Shown here: positions 4,118 to 20,934 of the stretch, in pieces | Numbering within the stretch: position 1 is the stretch's first letter | How the letters are laid out: every line of letters starts with the position of its first letter | DNA from: Symbiopectobacterium purcellii | Lineage (GTDB): Bacteria; Pseudomonadota; Gammaproteobacteria; Enterobacterales; Enterobacteriaceae | Direction: 5' to 3' | Assembly: GCF_019797845.1 (NCBI RefSeq) | Contig: NZ_CP081864.1 | Coordinates: 3,596,001-3,660,000, forward strand | DNA: 64,000 bases | Made by a program: the position numbers and the translations under genes | The notes under the pieces: model-generated | Databases searched by the model: none | What the model was told of the DNA's origin: nothing | What the model saw: only the letters and a program-made list of their open reading frames with translations

Positions 4118-4143
4118 CAGGCCGGCCATTGCTGGCCGGCCTG
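4118..4143. terminator. Perfect 11-bp inverted repeat after the fibre gene
   Basis: CAGGCCGGCCA, a four-base loop and TGGCCGGCCTG form a very stable hairpin ten bases beyond the fibre stop codon. It has no U-tract in either direction, so it is either a Rho-assisted or 3'-end-protecting structure, or a boundary element of the tail cassette. Confidence 0.5.
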
Positions 4144-4152
4144 GGGTATTAC

Positions 4153-6618
4153 TTATGCTTGCGTTGAAGTTTCCAAAACAACGTCGTTTTCGGCCTGATT
4201 GGGCACCGTTTCAACCACATCCTGCTGCACCTCAACCTCTGGCATTTGTACCCGTACCGAGATAAAGGTGTCGTGCGGAATATCGATCGGGTCACCATTG
4301 GCGTAGCCTTCAATCTCATTGCGTGCAAATGCCGGGGCATCCGGGTGTGGCCGATGATAGGTGCGGATAACGATAGAGCCATCCGGGTTTATCTGCTTAC
4401 TGCCCTCATCACCGCCGTAGTCCACCCACAGGCGAGGCAACTTGTTGCGGCACATCGGCACATCGATCCCCCCGTCATCACCGCCCCAGGCACGATCGGC
4501 ATTCAGGCCCAGACAACCGGAAATGCGATACCCCCCTTCGCTCAGGCGTTCAGTGGTGATGCCTTCGGCTTCGCTGGTGAGTTCGCTGGTGCCGTCTGCG
4601 AACAGCTTCACTACGGGTGATGCGGTTTTCCAGAATCCGTTGGAATCCGCAACGGCGTTATAACCGCTTGCTAGCAATGGGTTATTAGCTCCGCTCCCTA
4701 TTTGGACTAACGGGATTGAACTGCCGTGGATTGTTGTCGGAGCGGCACCGTCTCCAAGGTGAACAATGTTGGCTGCATTGATGTGAGCAAGGTTATATAC
4801 GGTGCCGGTCGTTGTTGTGCCACGGAACGCGACAGCATTCGCAGTAACTACAGCGGCTGAGTGCGTTTTTATAGCGCTGATAGTTTGCGCCGTGTTGCTG
4901 GAAACAATTGGTGAACTATTCCACTGGAGAGCCGAAGATAATATATTTAAGGTGCCTTGACCTACCGCAGCCGAACCGCCAGTTGCAATAATTCGTGAAT
5001 CATAATCATGCCCTGAGCCGTTACCAGAAGTGTGAAAGTCAATAAAAGTCGAACTGGCTGCATCTACGCGCCCCAATTCAACGCCGGTATTACCAGAACC
5101 AGCTATGACTGCAATTGACTGAAATGTCTGATTGCCGATAAATGATTGCGATGCAGATGTTGTTGCTGGGCTTGGTAGGTTTTTATCAGTCCAAAAATTA
5201 TGAACCACTTGCGCCGTCTGATTGCCAGCCATAGCGCGAACGCCGAATGATTCACTGCCAATAGATGGGGAAAAACCAATCGATAAAGAGGCGAAAGTAT
5301 CCCCTGAACGCAAAAGGAGTGTTGGAGAATAGCGTTTATCGTATTGGTTTCCGCCTTGCTCGTTTCGATAAATTCTGCTTCCTATTGCCGTGTTCTTATA
5401 CCAGGCTAAAAGCGTTGCCTCATCGTAAGAAACTATCTGACCATTACCGCCCCAACCATATGCGCCATTAAGCATCAATGAACCTGTGGTTTGATCGAAT
5501 TGGGTAGTTTGTTTAACTAAATTTGCGCTAGTCCATAGCGTAGACCAAGGGCTGGCGACACCAGCAGAAATCTGCCGTAACCTGAAATCAATACCGCCAC
5601 CATCGCGTCCGAGCAAATCCCAACCGTAGGTCCCGGCCTCCTGCACATGAAGCCCCGATGCACCTGTGCCTCCAAAGGGGTTGTCTGCATGATTAGCTGT
5701 ATAACTAAAGAACCCACAGCCAGCAGCGCCACCGGTGGCACCCGCAGCCCGAGGGCGAGCATTTGCGCCAAGGCCATGACCGCCATTAAGGACTACGGAG
5801 CCAGCGGTTGTGTCGTCCTGCGATGATTGTTTAACAAGGTTCTTATCTGTCCAAACGTCATAAACAACTGTTTGCACCCCCGACGTTGTACCGGCAGACA
5901 TCCTCACACCATGAGCTGTATTCCCTCCACCACTATGTGGCCCGACAGTAATTAGTGACCACATATCATTGGCTCGGGTATAAATTCCAGCGGCGTTTAG
6001 CTTTCCGTATGCGCTGTTATAATTAAGCCGAAGCACGCTCCCAGGGGTATTTTCGTCACGCAGGAAAGTCAGCAAATCAGCATCGGAAGTTATTCCTGAG
6101 ATTCTACCGCTGCCGCCCCACCCCCAGGCTCCGTTTATCAAAAGTGATCCTGCGGTAACATCGAATGGGCCTGTCTGCTTAACCCCTGTCACCTTCCCAT
6201 CCAGCGCAGCATCCCAAGCCTGCTGAGAGCGAACGGTAACGGTCTGCCAATCAGGCGTAGTGAGTGTAACGTTTCCCGTTCCGGTTAATATCTGCTGCCA
6301 GCCAGATAACTGCTGCTGGTAATAGGCAAGCGTTGATGCAAAGTCATGGGCAAACTGTTCAATGGAAACAGCCGGTGAAGTGGGAATGGCATAAGCTTTA
6401 CCCATTCCCGTTGTGCCAGTAAATGCCGATGCCAACGTTAATTGTGTATCAGATTGCACAGACGCAATTTCATAAATCTGAACAGTGCCAGCAGCGGGCA
6501 ATAATAACATCCGCCCTGCTGATACACCGTTTAATGAATTAGTGAATTGGGTTCCTGTGCCCGTAATGATTTTGCTGCCGTTAGTGGCAGCTATAGTTCC
6601 GGTTTTGTACCAAGACAT
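4153..6618 (-). CDS. Side tail fibre with three pyocin-knob-like repeats
   Basis: Phage-type receptor-binding fibre, 821 residues from the ATG at 6618, which has GGAGG five bases upstream. The N-terminus (MSWYKTGTIAATNGSK) resembles the particle-anchoring start of lambdoid and Mu-like side fibres. Three related modules begin near residues 143, 261 and 366. Each opens with VKQ, then an x-D-x-T-x-GS core and a glycine-rich LNGA-G-GWGG stretch, and ends with WTDKN or WTSAN before the next unit. This is the knob repeat found in pyocin and phage fibres. The C-terminal third is probably the receptor tip. The gene follows J by 83 bases and is the last gene of the tail operon. No separate fibre-assembly chaperone is visible downstream. 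It sets target range if the particle is made. Confidence 0.85.
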   Translation of the reverse strand: MSWYKTGTIAATNGSKIITGTGTQFTNSLNGVSAGRMLLLPAAGTVQIYEIASVQSDTQLTLASAFTGTTGMGKAYAIPTSPAVSIEQFAHDFASTLAYYQQQLSGWQQILTGTGNVTLTTPDWQTVTVRSQQAWDAALDGKVTGVKQTGPFDVTAGSLLINGAWGWGGSGRISGITSDADLLTFLRDENTPGSVLRLNYNSAYGKLNAAGIYTRANDMWSLITVGPHSGGGNTAHGVRMSAGTTSGVQTVVYDVWTDKNLVKQSSQDDTTAGSVVLNGGHGLGANARPRAAGATGGAAGCGFFSYTANHADNPFGGTGASGLHVQEAGTYGWDLLGRDGGGIDFRLRQISAGVASPWSTLWTSANLVKQTTQFDQTTGSLMLNGAYGWGGNGQIVSYDEATLLAWYKNTAIGSRIYRNEQGGNQYDKRYSPTLLLRSGDTFASLSIGFSPSIGSESFGVRAMAGNQTAQVVHNFWTDKNLPSPATTSASQSFIGNQTFQSIAVIAGSGNTGVELGRVDAASSTFIDFHTSGNGSGHDYDSRIIATGGSAAVGQGTLNILSSALQWNSSPIVSSNTAQTISAIKTHSAAVVTANAVAFRGTTTTGTVYNLAHINAANIVHLGDGAAPTTIHGSSIPLVQIGSGANNPLLASGYNAVADSNGFWKTASPVVKLFADGTSELTSEAEGITTERLSEGGYRISGCLGLNADRAWGGDDGGIDVPMCRNKLPRLWVDYGGDEGSKQINPDGSIVIRTYHRPHPDAPAFARNEIEGYANGDPIDIPHDTFISVRVQMPEVEVQQDVVETVPNQAENDVVLETSTQA

Positions 6619-6701
6619 GAGTCCTCCACACATAACAATTATTCATTTAACAAGACACTATATTGTGTTTATGAAAAGCAAATAAAAAACCTGAAAATAA
6701 A

Positions 6702-9700
6702 TCAAGAGTACGATTTATAATTCGCAAATGGTGTCACTGATGACGCTTTAACACCAAATATATACCCACCACTATCATCGTCAGAGACAAGCCCTGCACC
6801 AGCACGCCAGCAATAAACCTGTAGTTTTTGCTTTATTTCAGAAATGTTTGCTGGAATAAAAACAGGAGGGATATATACGCGATTACTTTGCCCCTGGCCA
6901 GCAACCACTCCACAGATTGTTGTTAAATCCCCCGATGGTGATATAAGAGCCAAAGTGGCATTCTGCCCTCCTTTATTACTAACCCCAATCATCAAGCGAA
7001 TATTCATAAACATGAATATTCGATCATAGGAAGCTGGCTCTATCTCGATAATATCCTTCCATCCTTCTGGTGGAACGGTAAGTGGCAATTTAAAACCGCT
7101 CATCCCTACGGTGTTATTTCCATTTCCAGCATTCTGAAGTTTAACAACATCACCCTCTATCTTATCAGCATAAACCGTGCCATTAAATGTGCCATCGGTA
7201 GCATAAACAGCACCTCTAACTGTCACATTGTTAAACTCAGCGCCACCAGAAACAAAGTCTATTTTTAACCCTTCAATACCTTTTAGATAATTATCAGATT
7301 GCAGACCATCTGATATTTTTGCTCTGGTAATCGCTGCATCATTAATTTTAGCATTAGTGATCGTTGCATCCCCAATCACCGCACTATTTAATATCGCTTG
7401 CGTTCCCTGCGTCGTAAACACAGGAGTTGGCGTCCCCCCTGCATTCGTCATGATCGACGTTCTGTCAGCTAACAAAATAATATTTGACTGCATCCCGGCA
7501 GTTGAATTTGAAACATCCAGACCAATACCTGCCAGATATTGTTTCCCATTGGCATCAACACCAACCTTGATCGTTCGTGATGCCGACAATTTATCGTCAA
7601 TATCATTAACAACGCTGCTGATATCACTAATTTCAGTTGAGACACCATTTACCGTTGCCGTTAATTGACTGATTTGCGTTCCCTGGGCTGTAATGGCATT
7701 CCCCTGCTGTGTAGCTGTTGCAGTCACCGCATTCACACTCTGCACCGCACCATTAGCGGTTGATTGCGCAGTATCAGCGGTTTGCTGCGCCGCCCCCACT
7801 GACGCGGTGATCTGCGTGATAGACTGACCTTGCGAAGTGATGGTATTCCCGTGCTGCGTCACAGAGGTGGTGAGCCCATCAATGGCAGTTGTATTGGCTG
7901 AAATGCCTGACTGAGCCTCAGTCATTTGGCTATTTAGCGTGGTAATCTGCAGAGACGTGGTTTCGTTTTGCGTTGCCACCGTCTGCTGCAACTGCGTCAG
8001 ATTGCTGTTAGTTGTGCCAATATTCGATTGCATTTCCAGCATCGCAATCGTTCTGGCCTCAACTTCATTGGCGATTGCAGTACGCGTTTCTGTTATTTCT
8101 GCCACCCTGTCGCCGTTCTGTGTGCGCCAGCGCCGTGTTTCAGCATCGTTAGCCAGGCTGTTACGAATAATCGCTTTCGCCTGTTCAATGCTGTTCAGCA
8201 GACCGTCTGAGATTTGCTGGGTATGATTATCAATCCCACCGACCAGCGATTTCCAAGCATCGGTTTCAGTGATTTCATCCACAATCACATCGGTAATATC
8301 ACTAACGTCAGTACTCGATTCCCCAACAATCCACCCCGTCCACGGCCCCTGATTGCCAGACTTGTCAACGATACGGGCGCGGTAAAAGAACGCCTGACCG
8401 ACGCTGAGCCCCATTTGCTGATACGTGCGAGTGGGGTACACCACATCGGTCAGCAGCAACACGTTCTGGCCGTCGCGGGTCGGGGAATACTGAATCTCGG
8501 TTTTCAGGGTATCGTCGGTGTCGGCAGGGAATTGCCAGTCGAGTTGGACACCGAACACCAGCGAGGTGGTGGTAAAACTGGCCAGTGCCGGCGGATTACC
8601 CACTTTCCCTGTTAGCGTGGTTTCCTGCGCGTTGGCCCACAGGCTGGAGATCTCCGTGGCATTGATGGCGCGCACGCGCGCTTGATAACGCCCGGCGTAA
8701 ATACCCGATACCTCAACGCCCTGTGCCGAGGTGCGCGCCGCGCTGATCCAGTTGCCGTTATCACGCCGCCATTGCACTTCATAGGCAATGGCACTGTCCG
8801 CCTTGTCCCAGGTAATGCGCAGGGTAGTGATATTGATACCTTGCTCGATGCGGTTATCGCTAGTGATCACCACGTTGTCCGGCGCAGGCTGTACCGAAGG
8901 TGGAACCAGACTGATGGGGCGAGATTCAATGCGCGCGCCGGTATCAATTTTGGCGAATTTATCCTGATCGAATTCGATGGCCGTGATATCAAAGGAAGCG
9001 CTGTCCTCGCCCTCTTTCACACCAATGATGCGATACAGTTGCAGCGCCAGGTCGCTAGCATCGACAGCCCATACCGACTCGGGCACCGGCGTTTCGCTAT
9101 ACGCCGTGGTAACGGTGACCACCTCGTCGTTCACCGCCTCAATAGTGCGCCCCTCTGCTTTGCCACTCGGCAGGTTGGGAATCAGGCGTTCACCGATGGC
9201 TGCGGAAGAGACACGGTCAAGCATAATGTTACGTCCGTCTACTGCACTGATACGCCCGCCTAACGGACGCCCAGCCAGCAAAGCATCAGCGATACCGACA
9301 ACCGTGCCGGGGACCGGAATATCCCCGTCCAGCCCCATAGTATAAGAGACGGTGCGATCGGCATCGTTGGTGTGCAATATCCATTTACCGCGCCGAATCG
9401 CTTCGGTCTGGCGCGTACAGCCAATTGCGGTCACATCGGCCTGTTTAATGCCGTAGCGCCGCACCAGTTTGTTATCCGCAACGGCTTCCACCGCGTCCTG
9501 ATAGGCGTTATCGGGATCGGACCAGGCCACCATCGCCGTGCTGTAGTGCGTTTTGCTGCTGGCGTTGCTGTAGGTAAAGCGCCCGTCGCGCACATTGGCA
9601 CGGGTGACCACGTAATCCATCTCGCGCGGCATATCGGACAGCACGTTCATCTGATTATTGGCCCAGAACGAGGAGCCACGAAAGATCGCCGCCAGATCGT

Positions 9701-10748
9701 TGAGCACCGTCCATGCCTCTTCTTGCGATTGGATGTACACATCGCACAAAAAGCGCGGTTCCGTGCCGCTGCCGCCATGACCATCCGGCACGAGCTGATC
9801 GCAGTACTGAGCAATCTGGTACAACGTCCATTTCGACAGCACCAGATGGGTGGCTTTGATACGCTCGCCCAGGCCAAAACGTTCGGAAAGCTGAATGTCG
9901 TAGTACACCCAGGCTGGGTTGTTGGAGAATGCCCACTTGAAGGTGCCATCCCAACTGCCCGAGTAGCGCCGCGTTTGCACATCATAGTTGGTGGGAACGC
10001 GGATAATTCGCCCGTCCGGCTCGCAGGAGACGACCGGAATATTTTGAAACTGCTGCGCGTCAAACTGCATCAGCAGTAGCGCCGTTTCCGGGTAGCGCAG
10101 CTTGGCATCAATCACTTCGGTAATGGCTTCGATCGCCATCTTATCGGCAATACGATTGCTGGTGGAATTGGGCGTGATGCGGCGCACGCGGATCTGCCAA
10201 CCGGTGGATGCTGTGGGCAGATCGATACGGTGGCTGCGTTCATATGACGTGGTGGTTTTGCCATCAATCTCCGTTTTCAGCACTTCACGGTAGCTGCCGC
10301 CGTCCGTGGCGATATCAATGGCATATTCAATACGATAGCCGCCCACGTCACCGTTATCATGCTGCTGTTGCAGTGCCGCCCAGGAGAAGCGTAAGCGCAC
10401 CGCTGAGAGGTTGATATTGGGCAACAAACGCGTCCACGGCGTTTTACTGGTCAGTTCGGTGCTTACCGCGATCTCATTTTCAACGCCGGGAAAACCGGGA
10501 ATATAACTTTGGTCGGGCGTACCGGGACGAAACGCCCACGACACGCCGGAAAAATTGGCGTTGCCGTTGCTGTCGTTAAGCGGCGTACCGTCAAGAAAAA
10601 TACGCGAGCCATCCAGATTCCCGGCAAATTCTCCTTCCCCCAGCGCCAACAGTATTTTGGCGTAGGAGGTGGATTGAATAGAATCTGGCGACTCAACGGG
10701 AACGCGCGCGTTCGCGCTGCCGCCTTTGCTGCCTTTGATCGCTGTCAT
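6702..10748 (-). CDS. Central tail-tip protein J (host specificity)
   Basis: Lambda gpJ homologue, 1348 residues, longer than lambda's 1132. J builds the tail tip and central fibre. The first ~600 residues are the conserved tip-hub region (MTAIKGSKGGSAN start, then IQSTSYAKILLALGEGE). Fibronectin-type-III-like segments follow near 620-800. A Q/T-rich stretch with repeated ITQ-ITAS and TAQSTANG units, predicted coiled coil, lies near 870-1060, and after it come a DUF1983-like region and a variable C-terminus. The start has a GGAGT ribosome site. An intrinsic terminator sits just upstream, so transcription must read through it. Confidence 0.93.
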   Translation of the reverse strand: MTAIKGSKGGSANARVPVESPDSIQSTSYAKILLALGEGEFAGNLDGSRIFLDGTPLNDSNGNANFSGVSWAFRPGTPDQSYIPGFPGVENEIAVSTELTSKTPWTRLLPNINLSAVRLRFSWAALQQQHDNGDVGGYRIEYAIDIATDGGSYREVLKTEIDGKTTTSYERSHRIDLPTASTGWQIRVRRITPNSTSNRIADKMAIEAITEVIDAKLRYPETALLLMQFDAQQFQNIPVVSCEPDGRIIRVPTNYDVQTRRYSGSWDGTFKWAFSNNPAWVYYDIQLSERFGLGERIKATHLVLSKWTLYQIAQYCDQLVPDGHGGSGTEPRFLCDVYIQSQEEAWTVLNDLAAIFRGSSFWANNQMNVLSDMPREMDYVVTRANVRDGRFTYSNASSKTHYSTAMVAWSDPDNAYQDAVEAVADNKLVRRYGIKQADVTAIGCTRQTEAIRRGKWILHTNDADRTVSYTMGLDGDIPVPGTVVGIADALLAGRPLGGRISAVDGRNIMLDRVSSAAIGERLIPNLPSGKAEGRTIEAVNDEVVTVTTAYSETPVPESVWAVDASDLALQLYRIIGVKEGEDSASFDITAIEFDQDKFAKIDTGARIESRPISLVPPSVQPAPDNVVITSDNRIEQGINITTLRITWDKADSAIAYEVQWRRDNGNWISAARTSAQGVEVSGIYAGRYQARVRAINATEISSLWANAQETTLTGKVGNPPALASFTTTSLVFGVQLDWQFPADTDDTLKTEIQYSPTRDGQNVLLLTDVVYPTRTYQQMGLSVGQAFFYRARIVDKSGNQGPWTGWIVGESSTDVSDITDVIVDEITETDAWKSLVGGIDNHTQQISDGLLNSIEQAKAIIRNSLANDAETRRWRTQNGDRVAEITETRTAIANEVEARTIAMLEMQSNIGTTNSNLTQLQQTVATQNETTSLQITTLNSQMTEAQSGISANTTAIDGLTTSVTQHGNTITSQGQSITQITASVGAAQQTADTAQSTANGAVQSVNAVTATATQQGNAITAQGTQISQLTATVNGVSTEISDISSVVNDIDDKLSASRTIKVGVDANGKQYLAGIGLDVSNSTAGMQSNIILLADRTSIMTNAGGTPTPVFTTQGTQAILNSAVIGDATITNAKINDAAITRAKISDGLQSDNYLKGIEGLKIDFVSGGAEFNNVTVRGAVYATDGTFNGTVYADKIEGDVVKLQNAGNGNNTVGMSGFKLPLTVPPEGWKDIIEIEPASYDRIFMFMNIRLMIGVSNKGGQNATLALISPSGDLTTICGVVAGQGQSNRVYIPPVFIPANISEIKQKLQVYCWRAGAGLVSDDDSGGYIFGVKASSVTPFANYKSYS

Positions 10749-10760
10749 GGGTACTCCATT

Positions 10761-10788
10761 AAAAAGAAAACCCGCTCAAGGCGGGTTT
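10761..10788 (-). terminator. Intrinsic terminator between the small exported-protein gene and J
   Basis: On the minus strand AAACCCGC, a five-base loop and GCGGGTTT are followed by a T-rich run. It lies eight bases after the small gene's stop and just before the J ribosome site, so J expression depends on read-through or antitermination. Confidence 0.85.
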
Positions 10789-10795
10789 ATCGGCA

Positions 10796-11110
10796 TCAGG
10801 ATTTGTGTCGTTTCTTCCAGGTATCTATCATCTCTTGCGTCACTTCATTCTTATAACAGATCGGCGAATAGCCCCCAGGTCGGCTCCATGCGCTGCGTTT
10901 TCCACAGCTGCTACCGTTACGTGCGGAATGATAGGGACACGGGCAATTTCCCGAATACGCAGCAATAGACTCATCGATGATGGCTTGTTTTATTTGATCG
11001 TTATTGACGGGCTGCGCTTTGGCGATAGCAACTTCCGGCAATAACAATACGGAGAAAAACAGGGTTGGCAGAAACACTAATTGCAGTGGCAATAATAAGA
11101 GTGCTTTCAT
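10796..11110 (-). CDS. Small exported Cys-rich protein of the tail operon (possible moron)
   Basis: 104 residues: a hydrophobic N-terminal signal segment (LLLLPLQLVFLPTLFF), a predicted cleavage near AIA-KAQ, then a mature domain with four cysteines (NCPCPYH, SSCGKRS, SPICYKN) and a basic C-terminus. Similar small proteins sit between I and J in enterobacterial lambdoid prophages; no function is established that I know of. It has a purine-rich ribosome site (AAGGT) and a terminator immediately downstream, the hallmark of an autonomously expressed moron. It probably acts in the periplasm. I do not recognise a specific family name. Confidence 0.75.
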   Translation of the reverse strand: MKALLLLPLQLVFLPTLFFSVLLLPEVAIAKAQPVNNDQIKQAIIDESIAAYSGNCPCPYHSARNGSSCGKRSAWSRPGGYSPICYKNEVTQEMIDTWKKRHKS

Positions 11111-11204
11111 TTTTTTTTACCTTGGCTGTGTGCAGATGCTTGCTGTGTACAGATAATGGTAAATAAAGCACGACAGCCGCGGTAAAACGGTGATGAAGGC
11201 AAAA

Positions 11205-11825
11205 TTACTGCTGGTCTTCGGCGTAAATTCCGGCAGAAATAATCGCGCCGCCAATACGACGGCGGCCATAAAGAATCGGCACCGGGTTACCCTGCGCAAT
11301 GGAGTTAACCGGCCCACCAAATGCATAGGAAGGATTATTATCGGGGGACTGGCGCATGGAAATGCCGCCTTGAACCGGAGTGAGCATTTGCACCACGCCA
11401 CCTAGCATCAGTACGCCACCCATTTTCATTAACGCGGAACCCCATGCCCCCCCGCCTAACGCTTGTCCCCAAGGGGTGAAGGATCCAAACGCGCCAACAA
11501 CAACCAAAACAGCCCCTAATATCGTTTGTAATATCCCTGCATTTTTACTTCCGACAACAATGGGAGCGATGCGAATCTAATGGCTAACGTTAAAATCCAG
11601 CTCATCTTTAGACAAATTATGCTGACCATCAAAAACCGCATAGGTCAGCCCACGGGATTTACTCGTCAGCAGAAACTTTTCAAAACCGGGAATAATCACC
11701 CCCAGCGCTTTAATGGCTTCCTGCCGGGTTTCCACCGCCAGGCGATGCACGCGGCCAAAGGTTGCACCCAATACGCCGTAAAGCCGAATGGTTTTTAACG
11801 GCTGATACTCAATGGCTAGCGTCAT
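11205..11825 (-). pseudogene. Tail tip assembly protein I, interrupted by an amber codon
   Basis: Lambda gpI homologue. The ATG at 11825 lies inside the end of K, as in lambda. The first 82 codons (LKTIRLYGVLGATFGRVHRL to LDFNVSH) are followed in the same frame by TAG at 11579-11577. The frame then continues without further stops through IRIAPIVVGSKNAG, a glycine-rich hydrophobic segment and NPVPILYGRRRIGGAIISAG, ending at 11205 at the usual family length (206 codons). Everything except that one codon is conserved, so the lesion is recent or is a base-calling error. Unless suppressed, no full-length I is made, and lambda needs I to assemble the tail tip. Confidence 0.9.
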
Positions 11826-12537: not shown

Positions 12538-12541
12538 GTTA

Positions 12542-13294: not shown

Positions 13295-13309
13295 CGGGTC
13301 TCCAGAGAC

Positions 13310-13332
13310 AAAAAAACCAGCGCGCAGGCTGG
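13310..13332 (-). terminator. Intrinsic terminator between M and L
   Basis: On the minus strand CCAGC, a short loop and GCTGG are followed by seven Ts. It lies 25 bases past the M stop and before the L start, inside the tail operon. Confidence 0.8.
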
Positions 13333-13357
13333 GGAAGGATGATGAAAGCGGCGCTAA

Positions 13358-13705
13358 TTACACGCCATACCACTGGACGAAGGTGGCGGTGATCACCCCT
13401 TGAACATTACCGGCCGGAGCAAACTTTATCGAGTCCTCCACCACCCGATAAAGCCCCGGCTTTTCATGCGGGGGAGTCCATTGGAATGATTTCTTGCGAT
13501 GACGCCGCAAGAAATCGCGAATCTCGACAGCGGTGTCGAGCTAGCCGCGAAACGCATAGGGAAAGGTGATGGTTTCCCCGTTTAACCCCGTGCCGGACAG
13601 TTGCGTATAGCCATCGCCAAACTGCACTTTGCGTACCGTTTCGTTGTATTGCACCTCGGGCTGATTGCCGATTTGCAGCGGCCAGTGAAATGTTTCAATT
13701 GCCAT
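13358..13705 (-). pseudogene. Minor tail protein M, interrupted by an amber codon
   Basis: Lambda gpM homologue, 115 codons. The start overlaps the H stop (TAATG). The translation has the family features VRKVQFGDGYTQ near residue 25 and KSFQWTPPHEKPGLYRV near residue 75. Codon 55 is TAG (13543-13541), between PYAFRG and LDTAVEIRDFLRRH. A single G-to-T change in GAG would explain it. No other defect is visible. Confidence 0.88.
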
Positions 13706-15063
13706 TAGCTTCTCCGCCCTTTCATTGCCGTGCTCAACATGCGTCCCTGCCCCATTTCCCGGGTCAGCAGCGATTTAAAGCGTTGATCGACAAAGCTGCC
13801 GATCTCACTGCCAAATTGCGCCAACCCGGCCGATGAGGTCTGAGAGATGCGGCCATCGCTGGCAATATTGATACTGACCTGCGGCGCCGTATTGCCACTC
13901 ACGCCGCCCACGGCTCGTACGCCCAGAACCCCATTGGCGTTGCGTGTCAGCGGCATAATGGCTTCCGGTCCGGCCTCACCCATCAATCCCGCCCCTTTGG
14001 CGAAGGCAAACAGCGTGGGGCGATCGACCACCTGCCCCGAATAGGCCGACAGACTGGATGAGGTATACACCCCCCCTTTGGCATTGGCTTTGGCGGTGAA
14101 ACCAAACGCGCCCATTAACGCATTCATCCCCTGCACCAGCGCCGACTTCACGGCGATTTCCGCCAACATGCCCAATACCGATTCAGCGAAAGAGGAGAAA
14201 TTGAGTTTTCCGGTCCGCACAAAATTCATCACGCTATTATCCAACTGTTGGAATGCCGCGTCGCCTCCGGCCTGAATAATGGAATAGGAGTCCAGCGCGC
14301 TCTCGGAATATTTCCCCCAGGATTCACTCAGGCCATCGACCCAGGTTTTGCCGCTATTTTTATTCGAGGTTCCGTCGTCCTGCCCGTTAATGCTCCTCTG
14401 GACATCGTTACGCTGCGCCGCGGTGGTTGCCGGATTTGAAGAGGCGCTCTGCTTATTTTTACCCTGGTCTTTATCCTTATCGTTATCCTTGGTGGTTGTC
14501 GAAATATCGAAAAAACCAAGAATAGCGTTAACGCCTTCGACCATTGATGCCCTTAACGCTACGTTCGCTAACATACTCAACATGGATTCGGCAAAATTCG
14601 AGAGATTCAGTTTGCCGGTTTTCACAAAGCGCGTTAATCCCGCGTCCAGCGTTTTAAATGCTGCCTCGCCGCCGGTTTTCACCTGGGTATAAGTATCTGA
14701 AGCCACTTTGGCATAGTCGCTCCATGACTCAATCAGGCCCTCCCGCCAGGTTTTCACCTTCGTTTCATCTTTGGATTGATCGGTGCCAATGCCATTCAGC
14801 CCTGCCAGCATATAGCCACTGGTATCGTTAAAATCAGCGCGCCCTTGCGCCATTACCCGTTGTGCCGACCAGGTGCCCGGCTGAGCTCGCACATCGCTCG
14901 CTTTCAACGCCGCACTCTGCTGAGCGACCAATTGAGAAAAACGCTGCGTCGCCTGGGTAACGACACTTCCCAGCGACAGCAAATCCTGCTGCACGCGCAG
15001 CACGCTGCTGTTTAACAACACAGCGTTAAAATTTAATGCCTGTTCATCGATTGTCTGGGCCAT
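13705..15063 (-). CDS. Tail tape-measure protein H, short form with an internal duplication
   Basis: Tape-measure protein that sets tail length; 452 residues from the ATG at 15063, far below lambda H (853). A TTG five codons upstream is an alternative start with GGAGG overlapping it. Residues ~105-185 and ~240-322 are two copies of one module. Each contains W-x-GL-ESW, a GG-AAF step, FV-TGKLN and FAES-L-ML. They are joined by a charged linker rich in Lys, Asp and Ser. The conserved C-terminus has GLMGEAGPEAIMPLTR. The reading frame is open throughout. The gene overlaps T by 20 bases. Its length predicts a short tail. Confidence 0.88.
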   Translation of the reverse strand: MAQTIDEQALNFNAVLLNSSVLRVQQDLLSLGSVVTQATQRFSQLVAQQSAALKASDVRAQPGTWSAQRVMAQGRADFNDTSGYMLAGLNGIGTDQSKDETKVKTWREGLIESWSDYAKVASDTYTQVKTGGEAAFKTLDAGLTRFVKTGKLNLSNFAESMLSMLANVALRASMVEGVNAILGFFDISTTTKDNDKDKDQGKNKQSASSNPATTAAQRNDVQRSINGQDDGTSNKNSGKTWVDGLSESWGKYSESALDSYSIIQAGGDAAFQQLDNSVMNFVRTGKLNFSSFAESVLGMLAEIAVKSALVQGMNALMGAFGFTAKANAKGGVYTSSSLSAYSGQVVDRPTLFAFAKGAGLMGEAGPEAIMPLTRNANGVLGVRAVGGVSGNTAPQVSINIASDGRISQTSSAGLAQFGSEIGSFVDQRFKSLLTREMGQGRMLSTAMKGRRS

Positions 15064-15379
15064 AACGAACCCCTCCAAATAATCCTTCGCCTATTACCAT
15101 CAGTTCATCATCACTCATCGTTTCAGGCTCAACCGTTGGCTGTAACAGGCTGAGTTGCTGTAACGGGATGTCTTGATGACCCGTTAACGCCAGCATGGTG
15201 GCACGCAGAGCGCAGCACTCCGCATCCAGCAGCACATCGGAAAAGTAGTGCTCCTGATAGAACGCAAACCATTCGGATAACTCGCTGGAAGAGAGCTCAG
15301 ACAGCATCGTGCGCCAGTCATGACGCCGGAACTACCGAGCCAGACGCATCGCAAAACGCACCTGTGCGGCTAAGACTTT
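15044..15379 (-). pseudogene. T portion of the G-T tail assembly chaperone, with an amber codon
   Basis: In lambda, T is made only as a G-T fusion by -1 frameshifting at the end of G. The -1 frame entered at 15376 reads VLAAQVRFAMRLAR, then TAG (15334-15332), then FRRHDWRTMLSELSSSELSEWF and on to 15044. Family members as I remember them have Glu at that position, so GAG-to-TAG is the likely event. An ATG at 15307 could re-initiate but would not make the fusion. Residues after the stop look conserved, so decay is recent. Confidence 0.85.
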
Positions 15380-15756
15380 CCCGGCGTACTGGAAGTACTC
15401 TCATCGGCGGGTTCCTCACTGGCACTTTCAGGCACGATGCCGCTGAGTTGCTGAACCAGCAAAGCGGCCTCATTGATCAAGCGCGGTGGCCAGTCGTTGA
15501 GCACCTGATTGAAAATGTCATCCAGGGCGCGTTCCCGATCCTGTTGCCACAGCGAGCGGGATACCAGCCAGGCGTGCAGTTTGATGGTCAGACTGCCAAA
15601 AATGGCCATTTTATTGGCCTCAGGGATAGCGTCAGGAATGTTCTCCAACGCACTCATGTGTTCAACAATCGCTTCGAGATACTCGATGCGCTGCAACCCT
15701 GACAGCTCAGACAGCACCACCTGATTGGGGCCAAAAGGCTCGGTTTTCAGGTACAT
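15370..15756 (-). CDS. Tail assembly chaperone G
   Basis: Lambda gpG-like chaperone that coats the tape-measure protein during tail assembly. 128 residues, beginning MYLKTEPFGPNQVVLSELSG and ending STSSTPGKS. The last codons contain the -1 slippery heptamer. Position between V and the T frame matches lambda exactly. Confidence 0.9.
   Translation of the reverse strand: MYLKTEPFGPNQVVLSELSGLQRIEYLEAIVEHMSALENIPDAIPEANKMAIFGSLTIKLHAWLVSRSLWQQDRERALDDIFNQVLNDWPPRLINEAALLVQQLSGIVPESASEEPADESTSSTPGKS
15376..15382 (-). promoter_or_regulatory. Programmed -1 ribosomal frameshift site (GGGAAAG) of the G/T chaperone
   Basis: The heptamer G-GGA-AAG, identical to the slippery sequence of lambda G, occurs three codons before the G stop in the correct phase. 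A -1 slip enters the T frame. The element is intact even though T itself has an amber codon 14 codons later. Confidence 0.88.
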
Positions 15757-15788
15757 GTGTTCTCCTTGATAGGATGTTTACCGATTAA

Positions 15789-15829
15789 GCCCCGCGTGCG
15801 CGGGGCATAAAAAAAGCAGCATCGGCTGC
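15789..15829 (-). terminator. Two hairpins between V and G, the first a strong intrinsic terminator
   Basis: Read on the minus strand, GCAGC-CGAT-GCTGC followed by seven Ts (15829-15809) starts right after the V stop. A perfect 8-bp-arm hairpin (15806-15789) with a two-base apex follows. Together they should end most transcripts after V unless the polymerase is antiterminated; terminating here also favours high production of the tube protein. Confidence 0.85.
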
Positions 15830-15830
15830 C

Positions 15831-16307
15831 TTAAGGCGTTACCGCCGCCGGTGCGTCTTCCGCCAGCACCGGCTTACCGGTATTGGTGACCTTCGCGGTG
15901 CGGGTGATCACTTCCTTAACAGGAATCGATTTCCCTAACGCACTGACCCAGCCCTTAAACACATCAACCACGCCGTTGGCATACTTGATCTTGTAGCCGC
16001 GCACGGCACCGGAGGTAAACCAATCCACCAGTTCCTGTTGCCCCAGATCGCCGGCTTTCCATGCCAGGGTGAAACTGGTGTCTCCGGCGGATTTGATACC
16101 CTGCGCGGTATCGCTCCATCCGGCGTTTTCACCGTCCAGATAGGTGTTATCGAAGGATTCCGCCGTCATCTCGCCCGGCGTCAACTCTTTGACCTGCGCC
16201 AGACGGGTCCAACCGCTGTCGCCCGTTGGGTTGGCATACGGGTCACCGGTGCCGGTAAAAACCCAAAGCGTGGTTCCTGCACCTTTAATGGCTTCTGTTG
16301 TAGACAT
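15831..16307 (-). CDS. Major tail tube protein V
   Basis: Lambda gpV-type tube protein, 158 residues. It begins [17 protein letters not shown] and has [18 protein letters not shown] near residue 45, typical of siphovirus tube proteins. The sequence ends shortly after the tube domain ([19 protein letters not shown]), so the Ig-like decorating domain of lambda V is absent. A strong terminator follows at once. Confidence 0.92.
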
Positions 16308-16338
16308 AATGGCCTCACTGATAATAAGTTATTGAAAA

Positions 16339-16725
16339 TTAGAGGTCTGCAGACCTCCAAATGCTCCCTTCTTCATCGAGTCGATAGTCATATCGCTGCG
16401 TTGAGAAGGTTTCCGTGCTCTCCTTAAGCGCTGATACTGACATCAGCACAGGGGAAATTTTCTGCGCCATCTTTTCATCCAGCGTCGAATCCGGGCTTCC
16501 CGCCTGTTCGAAAAGCGCAACGTGCAGATTGGCTTGCCACAGCGCCTCATCCAGTGCGTTTTCCACCGGTTGTGCATCACTGATGTAGACCGCGATGGCG
16601 GGCAAGCTGTCTGACGCTAAGGCGACGGGACGTCCGTCAAGAAAAGTGGTGTGTTCGGTGATGGCGGCGCGCAGCGCAGCCAAAACGGCAGCACGTAGCT
16701 GCATGTGCTTGATCATGATTGGCAT
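16339..16725 (-). CDS. Tail terminator protein U
   Basis: Lambda gpU-like minor tail protein, 128 residues, which caps the finished tube. Recognisable by AVLAALRAAITEH near the start, LPAIAVYISDAQPVE near residue 45 and the C-terminal TFSTQRYDYRLDEEGS. It is the first structural gene after the lysis genes. The head-tail joining genes (Z, FII) that would precede it in lambda are absent. Confidence 0.88.
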   Translation of the reverse strand: MPIMIKHMQLRAAVLAALRAAITEHTTFLDGRPVALASDSLPAIAVYISDAQPVENALDEALWQANLHVALFEQAGSPDSTLDEKMAQKISPVLMSVSALKESTETFSTQRYDYRLDEEGSIWRSADL

Positions 16726-16780
16726 GTCATCCGTAGTTGTTTGTCAGGGAGAGACGTACTGGCACTCAGCGGACAGCGAA

Positions 16781-17308
16781 TTACTTTCTGTCGGCCTGTG
16801 CCGTACGTATTGCATCAAGCTGGTTGTTGGCCTGTTCCAATGCCGCCAACAGTGGCTCAATCCAGTAAACGGCCTGGGCATAGGTCAATCGGCAATCGGC
16901 GGTAGCGGCACCACGACCGGCTGCGTTAGCGTCTGGGGCAACGCTGTGCACGACGCTGGCACGTAAACGGTGCGCGTCGTCGAGCAACCGCCCAGACACA
17001 GCATCAGGCACGCACTGACGCCCCACGGGATCGCGCTTGACTGTCGTGCGGTAAATAATCTGTTTTTCATCCGAGTCGGCCTTGATAGAGAGACTGTGCT
17101 GATAAGCATCGGCAGCTATCTGGTTCACGCGCTGAAACGTAAACGCCTGCTGCGCGATAATCGATTGTTGCTGCGTCTGGCGCAGCTCGCTGGATTGTTT
17201 GTCACGAGCGGCAATATCAGCCTCCCAACGAATCCCTTGTAGAGACCAACCGGCACCAAAGGCAGCCACGAGGGCCCCCGCGATCAGTAATACGTAGATT
17301 TTCATCAT
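16781..17308 (-). CDS. Inner-membrane spanin subunit Rz
   Basis: i-spanin: an N-terminal membrane anchor (IYVLLIAGALVAAFGAGW) followed by a periplasmic helical region rich in Gln (ELRQTQQQSIIAQQAF). The likely start is one of two ATGs at 17308/17305, just after the endolysin stop. With Rz1 it fuses inner and outer membranes at the last step of lysis. Length 174-175 residues is slightly longer than lambda Rz (153). Confidence 0.88.
   Translation of the reverse strand: MMKIYVLLIAGALVAAFGAGWSLQGIRWEADIAARDKQSSELRQTQQQSIIAQQAFTFQRVNQIAADAYQHSLSIKADSDEKQIIYRTTVKRDPVGRQCVPDAVSGRLLDDAHRLRASVVHSVAPDANAAGRGAATADCRLTYAQAVYWIEPLLAALEQANNQLDAIRTAQADRK
16885..17070 (-). CDS. Outer-membrane spanin lipoprotein Rz1, nested in Rz
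   Basis: 61-codon gene wholly inside Rz in another frame. It has a basic start (MKNRLFTAR), a hydrophobic core, the lipobox LCLGGC and then a proline-rich mature part (QPVVVPLPPIAD). This is the classical embedded o-spanin layout. Its survival in two frames argues that the lysis module was under selection until recently. Confidence 0.88.
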   Translation of the reverse strand: MKNRLFTARQSSAIPWGVSACLMLCLGGCSTTRTVYVPASCTALPQTLTQPVVVPLPPIAD

Positions 17309-17318
17309 CGGGCTATTT

Positions 17319-17868
17319 CTACTCAGCCAGGCACAGCGCCTGCTCTTTAGCGCGTCGCGCCACCAACCCCGGAAGCACCTCCTGCCCGACATAGACCCAA
17401 CGGCTAAGTTGATGACAGGCAGCAAGGTAAGATCCCGTCGTCAAATAGCGGTACAACGTGGAGGCCAGAAAATTCGAACAGCCAACGTTGAACACGAAGC
17501 TGCCGACACCATCAAAAACATTCTGCGGCAAGCGCGCGCCCAATTTGCGCTCAACGTTCTGCTCAAGGCAGTTTTGCGCATCCAGCTGATCTTCCGCGAA
17601 CCAGCGGGCAATCTGTCGATCATCGGCCAGCGTGTCCCCCCCCTGTAACACGTCGCGTATGGCCAATGCCCTGAGTGCTGATGCGGGCTGGGCACTGGTA
17701 AACATCCCGTCGGCATCCCTCAGCATTCCCCATCACCTCCATCGCAGCCTGGCTGAAGCGCAAGGTATTGCCCTGTTGGGAGTGATAGCTATCGCTATTA
17801 TTCAGCACCATGGCGATGATCACGCTAACAGAGCAAAACGCAGCAGTGACTATCTTGCGTCTACTCAT
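17319..17868 (-). pseudogene. SAR-type endolysin (lysozyme) with a one-base frameshift
   Basis: Phage lysozyme with an N-terminal signal-anchor (VTAAFCSVSVIIAMVL) and the catalytic region NAEGCRRDVYQCPA to TQGIGHT. The first frame runs to residue ~60; the family sequence then continues one base out of phase (GDTLADDRQIARWF, then NVFDGVGSFVFNVGC) to a stop at 17319. The two frames meet at a run of eight Gs on the coding strand (17635-17643 region). Seven Gs would give a continuous ~182-residue enzyme. The lesion is therefore either a homopolymer slip, a sequencing error, or rarely slippage-corrected. The start overlaps the holin stop. Confidence 0.9.
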
Positions 17869-18079
17869 TATGCATTCCCTCTTCTCTGCGCCGGTCTTCC
17901 CTGATTTTGAAAAACAAATTCACCAGAAAAGTCAGCAGACCAAACAACAAACTCCCCATCACACCAATGGCTGTCCACTGGTTAGGAGAAACGGCATCCA
18001 GTAACTGAAGCATCCAGTAGCTGCCGGTAGCCCCCGAAGCACCATAGGAGATGCCCGTCGTCAATTTATACATACGCAT
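17861..18079 (-). CDS. Holin (HP1-type)
   Basis: 72 residues from the ATG at 18079, with GAGG four bases upstream. Two hydrophobic segments ([11 protein letters not shown] and [21 protein letters not shown]) and a charged tail ([11 protein letters not shown]) match small HP1-family phage holins, which open the inner membrane or release SAR endolysin. It overlaps the endolysin gene by eight bases, so the two are translationally coupled. Confidence 0.85.
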
Positions 18080-18271
18080 AACCTCACCGCCGTCGTACGG
18101 GGTGCCTACAGTGATAAGAATAAAAAGCGGAAAGTGGTTATTAATAACGCTCCGGCATCTCAATTGCCGTGATGTCGAAGTAATGAGAGAGGCGCTACAC
18201 CGGTATGCAGAATAAATTTAAAAAAAGTTAAACAAGCCACACGACTATTAACATCATACATTCGTAAAAAC

Positions 18272-18303
18272 AAAAAGGCCTCGCGCAAGCGAAGCCTTTT
18301 TTA
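18272..18303. terminator. Bidirectional intrinsic terminator upstream of the holin
   Basis: AAAAAGGC and GCCTTTTTT flank an inner TCGC-GCAA-GCGA hairpin. It terminates in both directions and lies upstream of the lysis genes, where a Q-modified polymerase would have to pass it. Confidence 0.88.
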
Positions 18304-18345
18304 TGGTTTCTGTAAATTAACGATTTTTAACAGACTAACTTGTCA

Positions 18346-18475
18346 TTTGGAATTCCACAACATTTTTAATATCTGTTTTAATCAGAGGATGGCTTTTTAT
18401 GATATCGAACCAAATAAGCATTTTTTGTAGAATAAATGTCTTTTTGGAATTCCACAACCATTTTCTAAACGCACA
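18346..18475. repeat. Two copies of a TTTGGAATTCCACAAC element; a third is in the end of the Q gene
   Basis: The near-identical 16-base sequence occurs at about 18348-18363 and 18454-18469, and with one change at about 19252-19267 within the last codons of Q. The core TGGAATTCCA is a perfect 10-bp palindrome. On the minus strand each copy can encode VVEFQ, as the Q C-terminus does, so the copies may be remnants of Q 3' ends or a protein-binding site. The rest of 18080-18533 contains no gene I can support. Confidence 0.65.
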
Positions 18476-18533
18476 CGATAAAAAATGATATCGCCATTCT
18501 GTTTATACGTGGCAATACATTCACGCCCGGTAA

Positions 18534-18914
18534 TTATTTCGCAGGCCCCGTATATTGCAGCGTAATGGGTGTTCTATCCCACTCCCAATTTGATTTAGTT
18601 TGTTGCTGCCAGCCATTGTCCCACATGCAGTCGTGATAGGAACTGTTACGACTGCCGTCGTTAACATCCGTGACATAGCTCTGTAATTCCTCAACGTCAT
18701 AAGTTCTATACTTTTTCCCACCGCACCACCGTTTATAATTACAAGGCTCAGTGACAGTGCGGTAGTTGGTGCGGTTGATCACTTCATTGCGAACCGGGAA
18801 TCGCTGTTCAGCGCTAACCCGGCATAGGGATCTTGAAGTAACATGATCAGTCGGGTTATCGCGAATTTTCACCCACCGCGTCGAACACCCAGAAAGCAAC
18901 ACAGGAACCAACAT
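18534..18914 (-). CDS. Predicted phage-associated lipoprotein, native start possibly lost
   Basis: From the ATG at 18914: MLVPVLLSGCSTRW, a lipobox followed by a ~115-residue Cys-, Trp- and Asn-rich domain (EPCNYKRWCGGKKYRTYDV; SSYHDCMWDNGW). I do not recognise the family. In the same frame just upstream lie ATG-ATG, TAG (18932-18930), TLLLFM. With a sense codon in place of TAG the protein would have a textbook lipoprotein signal and a GAGG ribosome site. So the native start may be cut off by an amber codon, leaving an internal ATG without a good ribosome site. Confidence 0.55.
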   Translation of the reverse strand: MLVPVLLSGCSTRWVKIRDNPTDHVTSRSLCRVSAEQRFPVRNEVINRTNYRTVTEPCNYKRWCGGKKYRTYDVEELQSYVTDVNDGSRNSSYHDCMWDNGWQQQTKSNWEWDRTPITLQYTGPAK

Positions 18915-18938
18915 GAATAACAGCAGCGTCTACATCAT

Positions 18939-19240
18939 AGGCCTCGTTAAAGGACGAAGTGGCAACATGACTTTCAATTTTTGCGATAAGACTAATCTGG
19001 AATATTCCTGATTTACTGTTTGGGTTGGTGATTACGAAGGCAATGCACTCCTCTGTCATGCGTTCAATAGTGAACGATACTACACGCACAAATACACCTT
19101 TCTTTGCGAAAAATCAAAATATATATGTACATCCCTTCCCCTATCCGTTAATGAGGACAATGAGCCATTCGAAAAAAAATGCTTGTCATAAGGAATGAAT
19201 TTCGCATTAGGAATAGGATGAAATAATCATTTTTATCAGA
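18939..19240. other. Gap between the lipoprotein gene and Q, no supported gene
   Basis: About 300 bases, AT-rich. A minus-strand open frame (18856-19089) can be read here but it has no ribosome site and no recognisable domain, and it overlaps the lipoprotein gene. Confidence 0.5.
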
Positions 19241-19675
19241 CTACATTGCCTTTTGGAATTCCACCACCTTTTTTATTTTCGGCGTATAAACCAGCTCTTT
19301 CTGACATTCAAGATCGATATCCAGTTTGATATCCATCATGCTCAGACAGCCATCAATAAATCCTTCTGCCATTTGTAACTGTTTTAGCACCAACGTATGT
19401 GAAATGCCCAATTTGGTACCAATTACCCTCACTGGCAGGCCGAGCACATAGTGCCATTCCAATAGCACATGCAGGTACGGGTCGCGTTTTTTCAGACACG
19501 CCATCGCCCCATTGACAATCAACCCATCGTCATCGCAACACGACGGGCGCGAGCGCTGGCTGGAGGGCAGCAACCCGCGGAAGCCCGCCGCCACCGAAGA
19601 GTAATACAGTCCGTGTTCGGTATGAGAGGCCCATGCGCCATAGCGCTCGAGCACCTTTTGGATATCACGAATCAT
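19241..19675 (-). CDS. Phage antitermination protein Q
   Basis: 144 residues from the ATG at 19675 (ribosome site GGTGGCGAG). The sequence RDIQKVLERYGAWAS, SSVAAGFRGLLP, then SCCDDDGLIVNGAMACLKK and the helix-turn-helix-like VRVIGTKLGISHTLVLKQL match the Phage_antitermQ family, which lets RNA polymerase read through terminators into the lysis and tail genes. The open frame extends upstream into an ERIC element, so I place the start at 19675. It is the first gene of the minus-strand cassette; the ERIC lies between it and the repressor-operator region. Confidence 0.88.
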   Translation of the reverse strand: MIRDIQKVLERYGAWASHTEHGLYYSSVAAGFRGLLPSSQRSRPSCCDDDGLIVNGAMACLKKRDPYLHVLLEWHYVLGLPVRVIGTKLGISHTLVLKQLQMAEGFIDGCLSMMDIKLDIDLECQKELVYTPKIKKVVEFQKAM

Positions 19676-19695
19676 CTCGCCACCTTTGTTGTTTG

Positions 19696-19896
<201 letters not shown>

Positions 19897-19960
19897 TACC
19901 GTTATCTGGCAAGACCAGTAGGTTCTTGCCGCACCATCCCCCCTGGAGTAACAAAAGAGC

Positions 19961-19977
19961 GGCAGTCATAGACTGCC
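19961..19977 (-). terminator. Perfect hairpin GGCAGTC-ATA-GACTGCC before the Q gene
   Basis: A seven-base-arm inverted repeat. On the minus strand it is followed by a short T-run (TCTTTTG), so it may act as a weak early terminator or attenuator of leftward transcription. Confidence 0.45.
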
Positions 19978-20058
19978 ACCGAAAAGCAATTGATTTAATT
20001 AAGCACTAACGTCCATTACTCACGCGTAGTCGGTGTTGTTAGTGTAACAATACCTTTA

Positions 20059-20121
20059 GCTATCGATAATAGCAAAAGGCATTGCCTTTTCACTTGAAAA
20101 GCAATAGCGAGTGCTATAAAG
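20059..20121. promoter_or_regulatory. Repressor promoter and operator-like palindromes
   Basis: AAAAGGCA-T-TGCCTTTT (20074-20090) is a perfect 8-bp-arm palindrome. GCTAT-N5-ATAGC (20059-20073) abuts it. A TTGAAA (about 20095) and a TATAAA (20116-20121) lie just downstream; transcription from that -10 would begin at or near the ATG at 20130. The layout suggests autorepression by the CI-like protein and a leaderless repressor mRNA. Protein binding is inferred. Confidence 0.6.
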
Positions 20122-20129
20122 TTACTGAC

Positions 20130-20864
20130 ATGAAAACGATGAACACTTTGGCAGAACGGCTTAACCATGCGATGTCGCTGACGGGAACGACTCAGGGGCA
20201 ACTGGCACGCGCCGTTAACATGGCTCAGCCGACCATCTGGCGCTTGACCTCCGGTCAGGCGAAAGGAACATCGCGTATGATTGATATCGCCAATGCGCTG
20301 GGAGTCCGTCCTGAATGGCTGGCAAATGGTGATGAACCCATGCGTGCGCCAGTGGTAGCACCTTACGATTCTCGCTCCAACATTCCGCCGGAATCCCAGT
20401 GGGGAACGGTTGACGTGTGGGACAGCCACACCCCCTTGCGGGATGATGAAGTGGAAGTGCCGTTTCTGAAAGATATTGAATTCGCCTGCGGAACTGGGCG
20501 CATCATGAATGAAGATCATAACGGGTTTAAGCTGCGGTTTTCCAAATCGACCCTACGCCGCGTCGGTGCGAATTCGGATGGCTCCGGCGTACTCTGTTTC
20601 CCGGCCAAGGGCGACAGCATGGAGCCGTTTATTCCTGATGGCACCACCGTCGCCGTCAACACCAACGATAAGCGCATTATTGATGGCAAGATTTACGCCA
20701 TCAGCCAAAACGGGTGGAACCGCATCAAACTGCTGTATCAGGTCGGACCGGACACGGTAAGCATCCGCAGCTATAACAGTGCAGAACACCCTGTCGAAGA
20801 GAAATCGCTCAGCGACGTCGATATTATTGGCCGCGTGTTCTGGTGGGCGGTGCTGGACTACTGA
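20130..20864 (+). CDS. CI/LexA-like phage repressor (HTH plus S24 peptidase)
   Basis: 244 residues. An N-terminal helix-turn-helix (NTLAERLNHAMSLTGTTQGQ, then AQPTIWRLTSGQ) is followed by an S24 autopeptidase domain. The likely cleavage site is Cys-Gly in EFACGTG, the catalytic Ser is in KGDSMEP and the catalytic Lys in DGKIYAIS. Such repressors self-cleave on RecA filaments, so the cassette should be SOS-inducible. It is the only plus-strand gene of the cassette and diverges from Q. I chose the ATG at 20130; an upstream in-frame ATG at 20082 lies within the operator palindrome. No cro-like gene is seen. Confidence 0.9.
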   Translation: MKTMNTLAERLNHAMSLTGTTQGQLARAVNMAQPTIWRLTSGQAKGTSRMIDIANALGVRPEWLANGDEPMRAPVVAPYDSRSNIPPESQWGTVDVWDSHTPLRDDEVEVPFLKDIEFACGTGRIMNEDHNGFKLRFSKSTLRRVGANSDGSGVLCFPAKGDSMEPFIPDGTTVAVNTNDKRIIDGKIYAISQNGWNRIKLLYQVGPDTVSIRSYNSAEHPVEEKSLSDVDIIGRVFWWAVLDY

Positions 20865-20886
20865 TGACTGAGCCAGCCCAGTGCAC

Positions 20887-20914
20887 AAAAAAGGCCGTTT
20901 ACCAACGGCCTTTT
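20887..20914. terminator. Bidirectional terminator between the repressor and cysH
   Basis: GGCCGTT-TACC-AACGGCC with an A-run on one side and TTTT on the other. It serves the convergent ends of the repressor (stop at 20864) and cysH (stop at 20935), and marks the right boundary of the inserted cassette. Confidence 0.9.
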
Positions 20915-20934
20915 CCCTTCCAGTACGATGTCAC

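Follow-up and report, generated by a model that had tools for sequence, protein, structure and literature searches.

What are the tail genes of a lambda-type phage doing, with no head genes beside them, between cysH and cysG in the chromosome of Symbiopectobacterium purcellii? The question is raised by a 64,000-nucleotide stretch of contig NZ_CP081864.1 (positions 3,596,001 to 3,660,000, forward strand; the whole stretch is called the window here), in which such a cassette fills the interval between cysG and cysH, from 4153 to 20864. We consider it quite probable that the cassette is a chromosomally fixed, headless lambda-type tail set that evolved as an F-type tailocin, releasing flexible tails that would kill related bacteria. 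An earlier note on this DNA had suggested a domesticated F-type tailocin, and that suggestion appears to be the best fit to the presence of the element at one slot in all five species of the genus sampled and to its low ratio of nonsynonymous to synonymous divergence (dN/dS).

Read from the cysH side, the cassette opens with a divergent CI-like S24 repressor, Q, a lipoprotein-like open reading frame (ORF), holin, endolysin and Rz. After these come U, V, G, T, H, M, L, K and I, then a small, apparently secreted ORF, and last J and a side fibre. The named tail genes stand in lambda order by ORFs, PHROGs and Pfam. The features, in window coordinates, are:

20935-21672, reverse strand: cysH, flanking gene
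20082-20864, forward strand: CI-like repressor with helix-turn-helix and S24 domains, divergent from Q (phrog_4, 3.3e-51; PF00717, PF01381)
19696-19897 (ends approximate), no strand: repeat resembling a miniature inverted-repeat transposable element (MITE) in the Q leader (alignment with four sister species)
19241-19732, reverse strand: Q antiterminator (phrog_79; PF06530, 8.9e-43)
18534-18914, reverse strand: lipoprotein-like ORF (no PHROG, Pfam or NCBIfam match; dN/dS 0.04-0.08)
17861-18163, reverse strand: holin, P21 type (PF04971, 2.3e-30)
17319-17868, reverse strand: endolysin (phage lysozyme) in two frames (PF00959 on both pieces)
16885-17109, reverse strand: Rz1-like lipoprotein ORF nested inside Rz (ORF listing)
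16781-17425, reverse strand: Rz spanin (phrog_214, 1.2e-37)
16339-16725, reverse strand: U, tail terminator (phrog_37; PF06141)
15831-16307, reverse strand: V, tail tube protein, lacking the C-terminal part of the family profile (phrog_41 positions 7-159 of 245; PF16461)
15370-15756, reverse strand: G, tail assembly chaperone (phrog_42; PF06894; GGGAAAG heptamer at the 3' end)
15044-15307, reverse strand: T, with an additional upstream frame (phrog_39; PF06223; frames)
13705-15078, reverse strand: H, short tape measure (phrog_1716, 1.8e-77; PF09718 in two stretches)
about 13358-13702, reverse strand: M, tail-tip protein with one in-frame stop (frames; 94-96% identical and open in the sister genomes G003 and G004)
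12542-13294, reverse strand: L, tail-tip protein (phrog_18, 5.5e-120; PF05100)
11809-12537, reverse strand: K, tail-tip protein with JAB and NlpC/P60 domains (phrog_30, 1.6e-125; Pfam Prok-JAB, NLPC_P60)
11205-11954, reverse strand: I, tail assembly protein in two pieces (phrog_32 on both; the mechanical ORF start overlaps K)
10796-11110, reverse strand: small secreted-looking, cysteine-containing protein between I and J (phrog_27544, 1.7e-26, function not assigned), kept in the genus
6702-10748, reverse strand: J, tail tip and host specificity protein, 1348 amino acids (phrog_2589 and phrog_31, E=0)
4153-6633, reverse strand: side tail fibre (phrog_1591, 1.7e-94; Pfam Phage_tail_C_2)
2456-3877, reverse strand: cysG, flanking gene

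The mechanical start of Q lies at 19732, and the alignment places the start conserved in the genus further in, near 19673. T is predicted to be the product of a -1 frameshift from G.

The families found for U, V, G, T, H, M, L, K, I and J in PHROGs and Pfam are those of a non-contractile, siphophage-type tail, and the S24 repressor, Q, holin, endolysin and Rz are the regulator and lysis genes that an F-type tailocin would carry. None of the 20 cassette ORFs scanned matched a sheath or baseplate family, so that the contractile sheath and P2-type baseplate of an R-type tailocin are missing from this set, and none matched head, packaging, replication or integration families (PHROGs, Pfam), two ORFs having no assigned function. 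PHROG matches labelled 'connector' proved to be the tail terminator U, not a head connector. In tblastn searches of window positions 2001-22000, the head proteins of lambda, HK97, N15, ES18, D3 and OS31 found no match; as a positive control, the same sets did pick up TerL and portal in another lambda-type prophage, one with a head, that a sister species carries. U is retained, and Z, which lies directly upstream of U in lambda and N15, had no tblastn match in the cassette, nor did head-joining proteins. The description of a lambda-order, tail-only cassette lacking head, joining, integration and replication genes, given in the earlier note, is therefore confirmed by the family scans and the six head sets. 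Loss of head genes through assembly, which the note had named as a way for its reading to fail, is ruled out because the genome is a single contig of 4,942,431 bases. Terminase-family matches occur elsewhere in it, at 0.54, 0.61, 2.38 and 2.57 Mb and, weakly, at 4.16 Mb, and none falls in the window at 3.596-3.660 Mb; the window holds no tRNA genes.

The genus sample comprised five genomes: S. purcellii itself (G000), S. endolongispinus (G001), Candidatus Symbiopectobacterium 'North America' (G002), Candidatus Symbiopectobacterium NZEC151 (G003) and a genome labelled Serratia marcescens 1001295B (G004, record JADMXW). By kinship and cassette identity the last falls in Symbiopectobacterium, and its label is likely wrong. 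The element lies at cysH-cysG in all five, four copies being complete and tail-only and that of the draft G002 being in pieces, and the repressor was found in every genome. In G001 and G003 the cassette stands whole, with cysH on one side and cysG on the other. The G004 copy has cysG at its fibre end, on a contig that stops just past the repressor, and another contig stops 256 bases past cysH. The assembly of G002 is fragmented: its Q and repressor are next to cysH, and its I and J on a different contig. A temperate lambdoid prophage would be expected to show head, packaging and integration genes at the slot in some relatives; no prophage so equipped was seen there in the genus, where the assembly of G002 is partial. 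Nor was one seen in 26 of the 27 other family genomes checked, which lack the element at that slot. In 13 of these, cysG follows cysH after 185-519 bases, and at 13 further loci the two genes are 1.4-4.4 kb apart with no match to any cassette gene (15 such cysG loci had no cysH within 1.5 kb; 14 were fetched and G317 was left out). The twenty-seventh, G075, is undecided, its contig beginning 8.8 kb ahead of cysG, a stretch that holds no cysH and no tail genes. The refuting outcome that the earlier note had foreseen, a head-bearing prophage at this site in relatives, thus did not appear, and the intact tail-only cassettes that it had asked for in relatives were found: all genes are open in G004, and the sole lesion in G003 is a late frameshift in L.

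Divergence within the genus points to descent in place. For the pooled tail-body genes U, V, G, H, M, L and K (1446-1467 codons per pair), dN/dS was 0.095 between the window copy and G003 (dS 0.234), 0.080 against G004 (dS 0.448), 0.116 against G001 (dS 0.249) and 0.079 between G003 and G004. For cysH and cysG the corresponding window values were 0.056 (dS 0.286), 0.045 (dS 0.494) and 0.076 (dS 0.252), in an overall range of 0.037-0.076. Repressor, Q and holin together gave 0.041, 0.037 and 0.071 against G003, G004 and G001, and T gave 0.04-0.14; leaving T aside, the highest per-gene values, 0.09-0.36, were those of U, I and the small secreted-looking ORF at 10796-11110 (0.20-0.26). Since dS in the tail body is similar to that of the flanking cys genes, the cassette has descended vertically in place, and the low dN/dS indicates that its proteins were under selection while already headless; by these counts the headless unit is inherited vertically under selection, at one chromosomal locus as would be expected of an F-type tailocin. 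The slippery GGGAAAG heptamer at the end of G is kept in the window copy, G003 and G004 (three of four); it was not found in G001, where G is broken.

The receptor-binding parts are diversified on this conserved body, as they would be in a tailocin. Among the window copy, G003 and G004, H is 81-100% identical per 100 alignment columns. J falls from 86-100% over its first 800 columns through 54-89% in the stretch after them to 23-63% at the distal end, and the fibre is 87-93% identical at its start, 12-59% in its middle and 78-91% at its end.

The tape measure of the cassette is short and internally doubled. H has 457 amino acids from a TTG start or 452 from ATG in the window and 451-455 in three relatives, depending on the start chosen. 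Residues 95-196 (counted from ATG) match a second stretch with 47 of 102 identities, and the duplication scores 247, whereas 500 shuffles reached 64 at most. Pfam finds Tape_meas_lam_C (PF09718) in two stretches in the H proteins of the window and G003, in one in lambda, HK97, N15 and D3, and at no place above threshold in OS31 and ES18. The N-terminal TMP_2/TMP_3 match present in lambda, HK97, N15, OS31 and ES18 was not obtained with H; D3 lacks it too, so this loss is by itself not diagnostic. In none of 498 phage records did a match cover 80% of H, and at 43 of 44 head-bearing loci in the survey described below the tape measure, taken as the longest ORF upstream of L, had 806-1195 amino acids, the exception of 372 being a broken phage. 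A tape measure of about 455 amino acids that lacks the usual N-terminal Pfam domain and has its C-terminal domain doubled thus appears to be new. Lambda's own has 853 amino acids, and the lambda tail is 135 nm long; scaled on that ratio, the tail of the cassette would measure about 70 nm, about half of lambda's. Cut to half length, with its C-terminal domain doubled, this tape measure is a natural experiment on what determines tail length and on what makes the pore without DNA injection.

The copy in the window is most likely dead. T (upstream of the 15044-15307 stretch), M and I each carry one in-frame stop, and the endolysin, a single frame in G001, G003 and G004, is broken by a frameshift; I is open in G003 and G004. 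To these lesions, from which the earlier note had suspected an inactive copy, the alignment adds a MITE-like repeat of about 200 bases in the Q leader, absent from the four sister species and with 72 matched stretches in the window genome, which strengthens that suspicion. The signal-peptide start of the lipoprotein-like ORF is interrupted as well, and the S. endolongispinus copy has many lesions. The Q-leader repeat had been passed over in the earlier note, as had the short tape measure, the lipoprotein-like ORF and the small ORF between I and J. The working form of the cassette would thus be that of the sister species, not that of the window. Each in-frame stop, whether in T, M or I or in the start region of the lipoprotein-like ORF, is TAG. 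A reassigned amber codon was considered and rejected, the window giving no general sign of recoding: open frames of more than 250 codons end in TAA 20 times, TGA 13 times and TAG four times, and of the other TAG-split pairs the longest consists of two distinct host genes, by eye rlmD and relA. The TAG stops are taken as ordinary lesions.

A 56-base repeat is present in three copies, 68-80% identical to a reference copy, one at the 3' end of Q (19221-19276) and two in the gap that separates the lipoprotein-like ORF from the holin (18315-18370 and 18412-18467), which looks as though that ORF had come in as a moron through duplication of the end of Q.

If the tailocin reading holds, the known roles of these gene families suggest how the particle would be made and used. 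DNA damage would trigger self-cleavage of the repressor through its S24 domain and so free Q, which would antiterminate a single late operon. Tails would assemble on the short tape-measure ruler and be capped by U, and holin, endolysin and spanin would lyse the cell to release them as flexible tails. The choice of target cell would fall to J and the fibre, and the bound tails would kill related bacteria; with no head and no DNA to inject, the doubled C-terminal domain of the tape measure might open the target membrane or make a pore.

Several points weigh against this reading. The cassette is known here from its genes, so that particles, induction and killing are predictions, and no operators of the repressor were identified. 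The sample is five species, one of them a poor draft, and only one of the four complete copies is free of lesions, those of the window and S. endolongispinus being in decay and that of G003 having its L frameshift. The dN/dS counts skip stop codons and gaps, and variation in J and the fibre occurs in prophages too. The tblastn head test is of limited reach: at 35 of the 79 tail loci surveyed it detected none, and the absence of a head from the cassette therefore rests mainly on the family scans.

Decay is the obvious other history: a lambdoid prophage would have lost its head and integration genes in the ancestor of the genus, leaving a remainder that is merely falling apart. Such a history would suit the several lesions in the window and the heavy decay in S. 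endolongispinus, as well as the second, head-bearing lambda-type prophage with a related tail in that species, which shows that such phages do enter the genus. However, a tail-body dN/dS of 0.08-0.12 at a dS of 0.23-0.45 is far from neutral, one copy (G004) is open throughout, and what has been retained, regulator, lysis genes and U to fibre with no match for the head-joining Z, is what a tail particle needs. We regard decay alone as unlikely. It is more improbable still that the tail module has some other use, supplying tails to a resident prophage or a capsid-forming satellite, or acting on an insect host. The terminase genes elsewhere in the genome and the retention of U would be in keeping with the former, and the life of the genus with insects and nematodes, as published abstracts report, with the latter; against these stand the absence of a head-joining match, a fibre and tip of the phage receptor-binding kind, and PHROG and Pfam scans of the cassette that found no effector domain, with two ORFs lacking an assigned function.

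The head-bearing prophage of S. endolongispinus lies on contig 5 (L147, L069), is itself decaying, and has a J 81% identical to that of the cassette; it is possibly a relative of the cassette's donor. A published transcript (MW965290; PMC8156552) contains a tape measure-M-L-K-I-J stretch that is expressed in a leafhopper with a Symbiopectobacterium symbiont; it may derive from the cassette or from a head-bearing prophage.

Of 295 family genomes, those of the genus included, 91 have a match to L at E<=1e-20. Outside the genus, 81 of the 85 places at E<=1.3e-64 were examined, the remainder being three short or contig-edge stretches and one duplicate. Four of them, in four more genera, are tail-only with a repressor and/or an antiterminator:

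G097, beside an amn-like gene (by eye): repressor, N-like gene, holin and U to fibre; tape measure 393 amino acids with one C-terminal domain
G105, in a slot near an smrA-like gene (by eye): Q by tblastn only; tape measure 479 amino acids with doubled C-terminal domain
G028, in a slot neighbouring that of G105, near an smrA-like gene (by eye): tape measure 814 amino acids with TMP_2
G006: repressor, N-like gene, endolysin, Rz and U onward; tape measure 695 amino acids with TMP_2

No repressor was recognised in G105, and no lysis gene was seen in G105 or G028. A short tape measure is not universal among tail-only cassettes. Thirty-five of the 79 lambda-tail places fetched had no tblastn match to the six reference head sets; ORFs were listed for eight of these (G265 among them), which confirmed two as tail-only. 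The remaining places without a head match may carry other head types, so the four extra genera are a lower bound. The tail-only cassettes of two genera (L141 and L235) flank a similar DoxX-like gene (by eye), one on either side, which suggests a shared hot spot.

Part of the candidates with short tape-measure ORFs were fetched. That of G265 (L143/L166) looks like a deletion fusing the holin to the tape-measure end, that of G131 (L144/L232) belongs to a broken head-bearing phage, and that of G260 (L145) has a 752-amino-acid ORF just upstream and so is a split tape measure; G232 (L146), G109 (L148) and G016 contig 70 (L149) were examined by tblastn only.

More tentatively, and at somewhat less than even odds in our judgement, these cassettes may belong to an overlooked enterobacterial class of miniature F-type tailocins, in which loss of the ruler domain and doubling of the membrane domain of the tape measure would give short tails that could make larger or paired pores, the cassettes being installed in genus-specific slots and used by insect symbionts against kin. 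A genus-fixed F-type tailocin in insect symbionts, together with tail-only cassettes in four more enterobacterial genera, would if true make a broad and testable class, and Symbiopectobacterium would show a weapon against kin decaying while its owners become symbionts.

Among complete phages, Serratia phage vB_SspS_OS31 has the best-scoring L of the phage matches listed (69.6%) and the order M-L-K-(extra ORF)-I-J, and N15 shares the U-V-G-T-H layout of the cassette; the product names of the two genes that follow J in N15 recur among the PHROGs of two ORFs behind J in G004. Unlike the cassette, both phages have heads, and their tape measures have 1120 and 838 amino acids. In F-type pyocins the genes for regulation and lysis occupy a fixed place in the chromosome. 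Two papers describe the F-type pyocin of Pseudomonas aeruginosa as lambda-related (PMC10811719, PMC12090994). It shares with the cassette a set of headless lambda-type tail genes, but the cassette stands in other bacteria and another slot, has its own repressor and Q, and may differ also in its tape measure of about 455 amino acids with a doubled C-terminal domain. F-type tailocins are few: the authors of rhizoviticin, an F-type tailocin of Allorhizobium vitis encoded by a chimeric prophage, call it a rare example and name only F-pyocin and monocin beside it (PMC10811719). Rhizoviticin is alphaproteobacterial and its antagonistic activity has been demonstrated, whereas the Symbiopectobacterium cassette is known from its genes. 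Titles and abstract openings among the literature matches listed, a scope outside which most subscription journals and preprints fall, named no lambda-type tailocin in Symbiopectobacterium or another enterobacterium. Carotovoricin of Pectobacterium is a contractile R-type tailocin. The tailocin P2D1 of Dickeya dadantii is P2-like by the titles of its papers (PMC10719855, PMC12904277). Both come from related soft-rot bacteria and are contractile or P2-like, whereas the cassette ORFs include no sheath family. Carotovoricin combines a conserved locus with an exchanged fibre locus (PMC13195805), and it is this pattern that the cassette, with its conserved body and divergent fibre middle, resembles.

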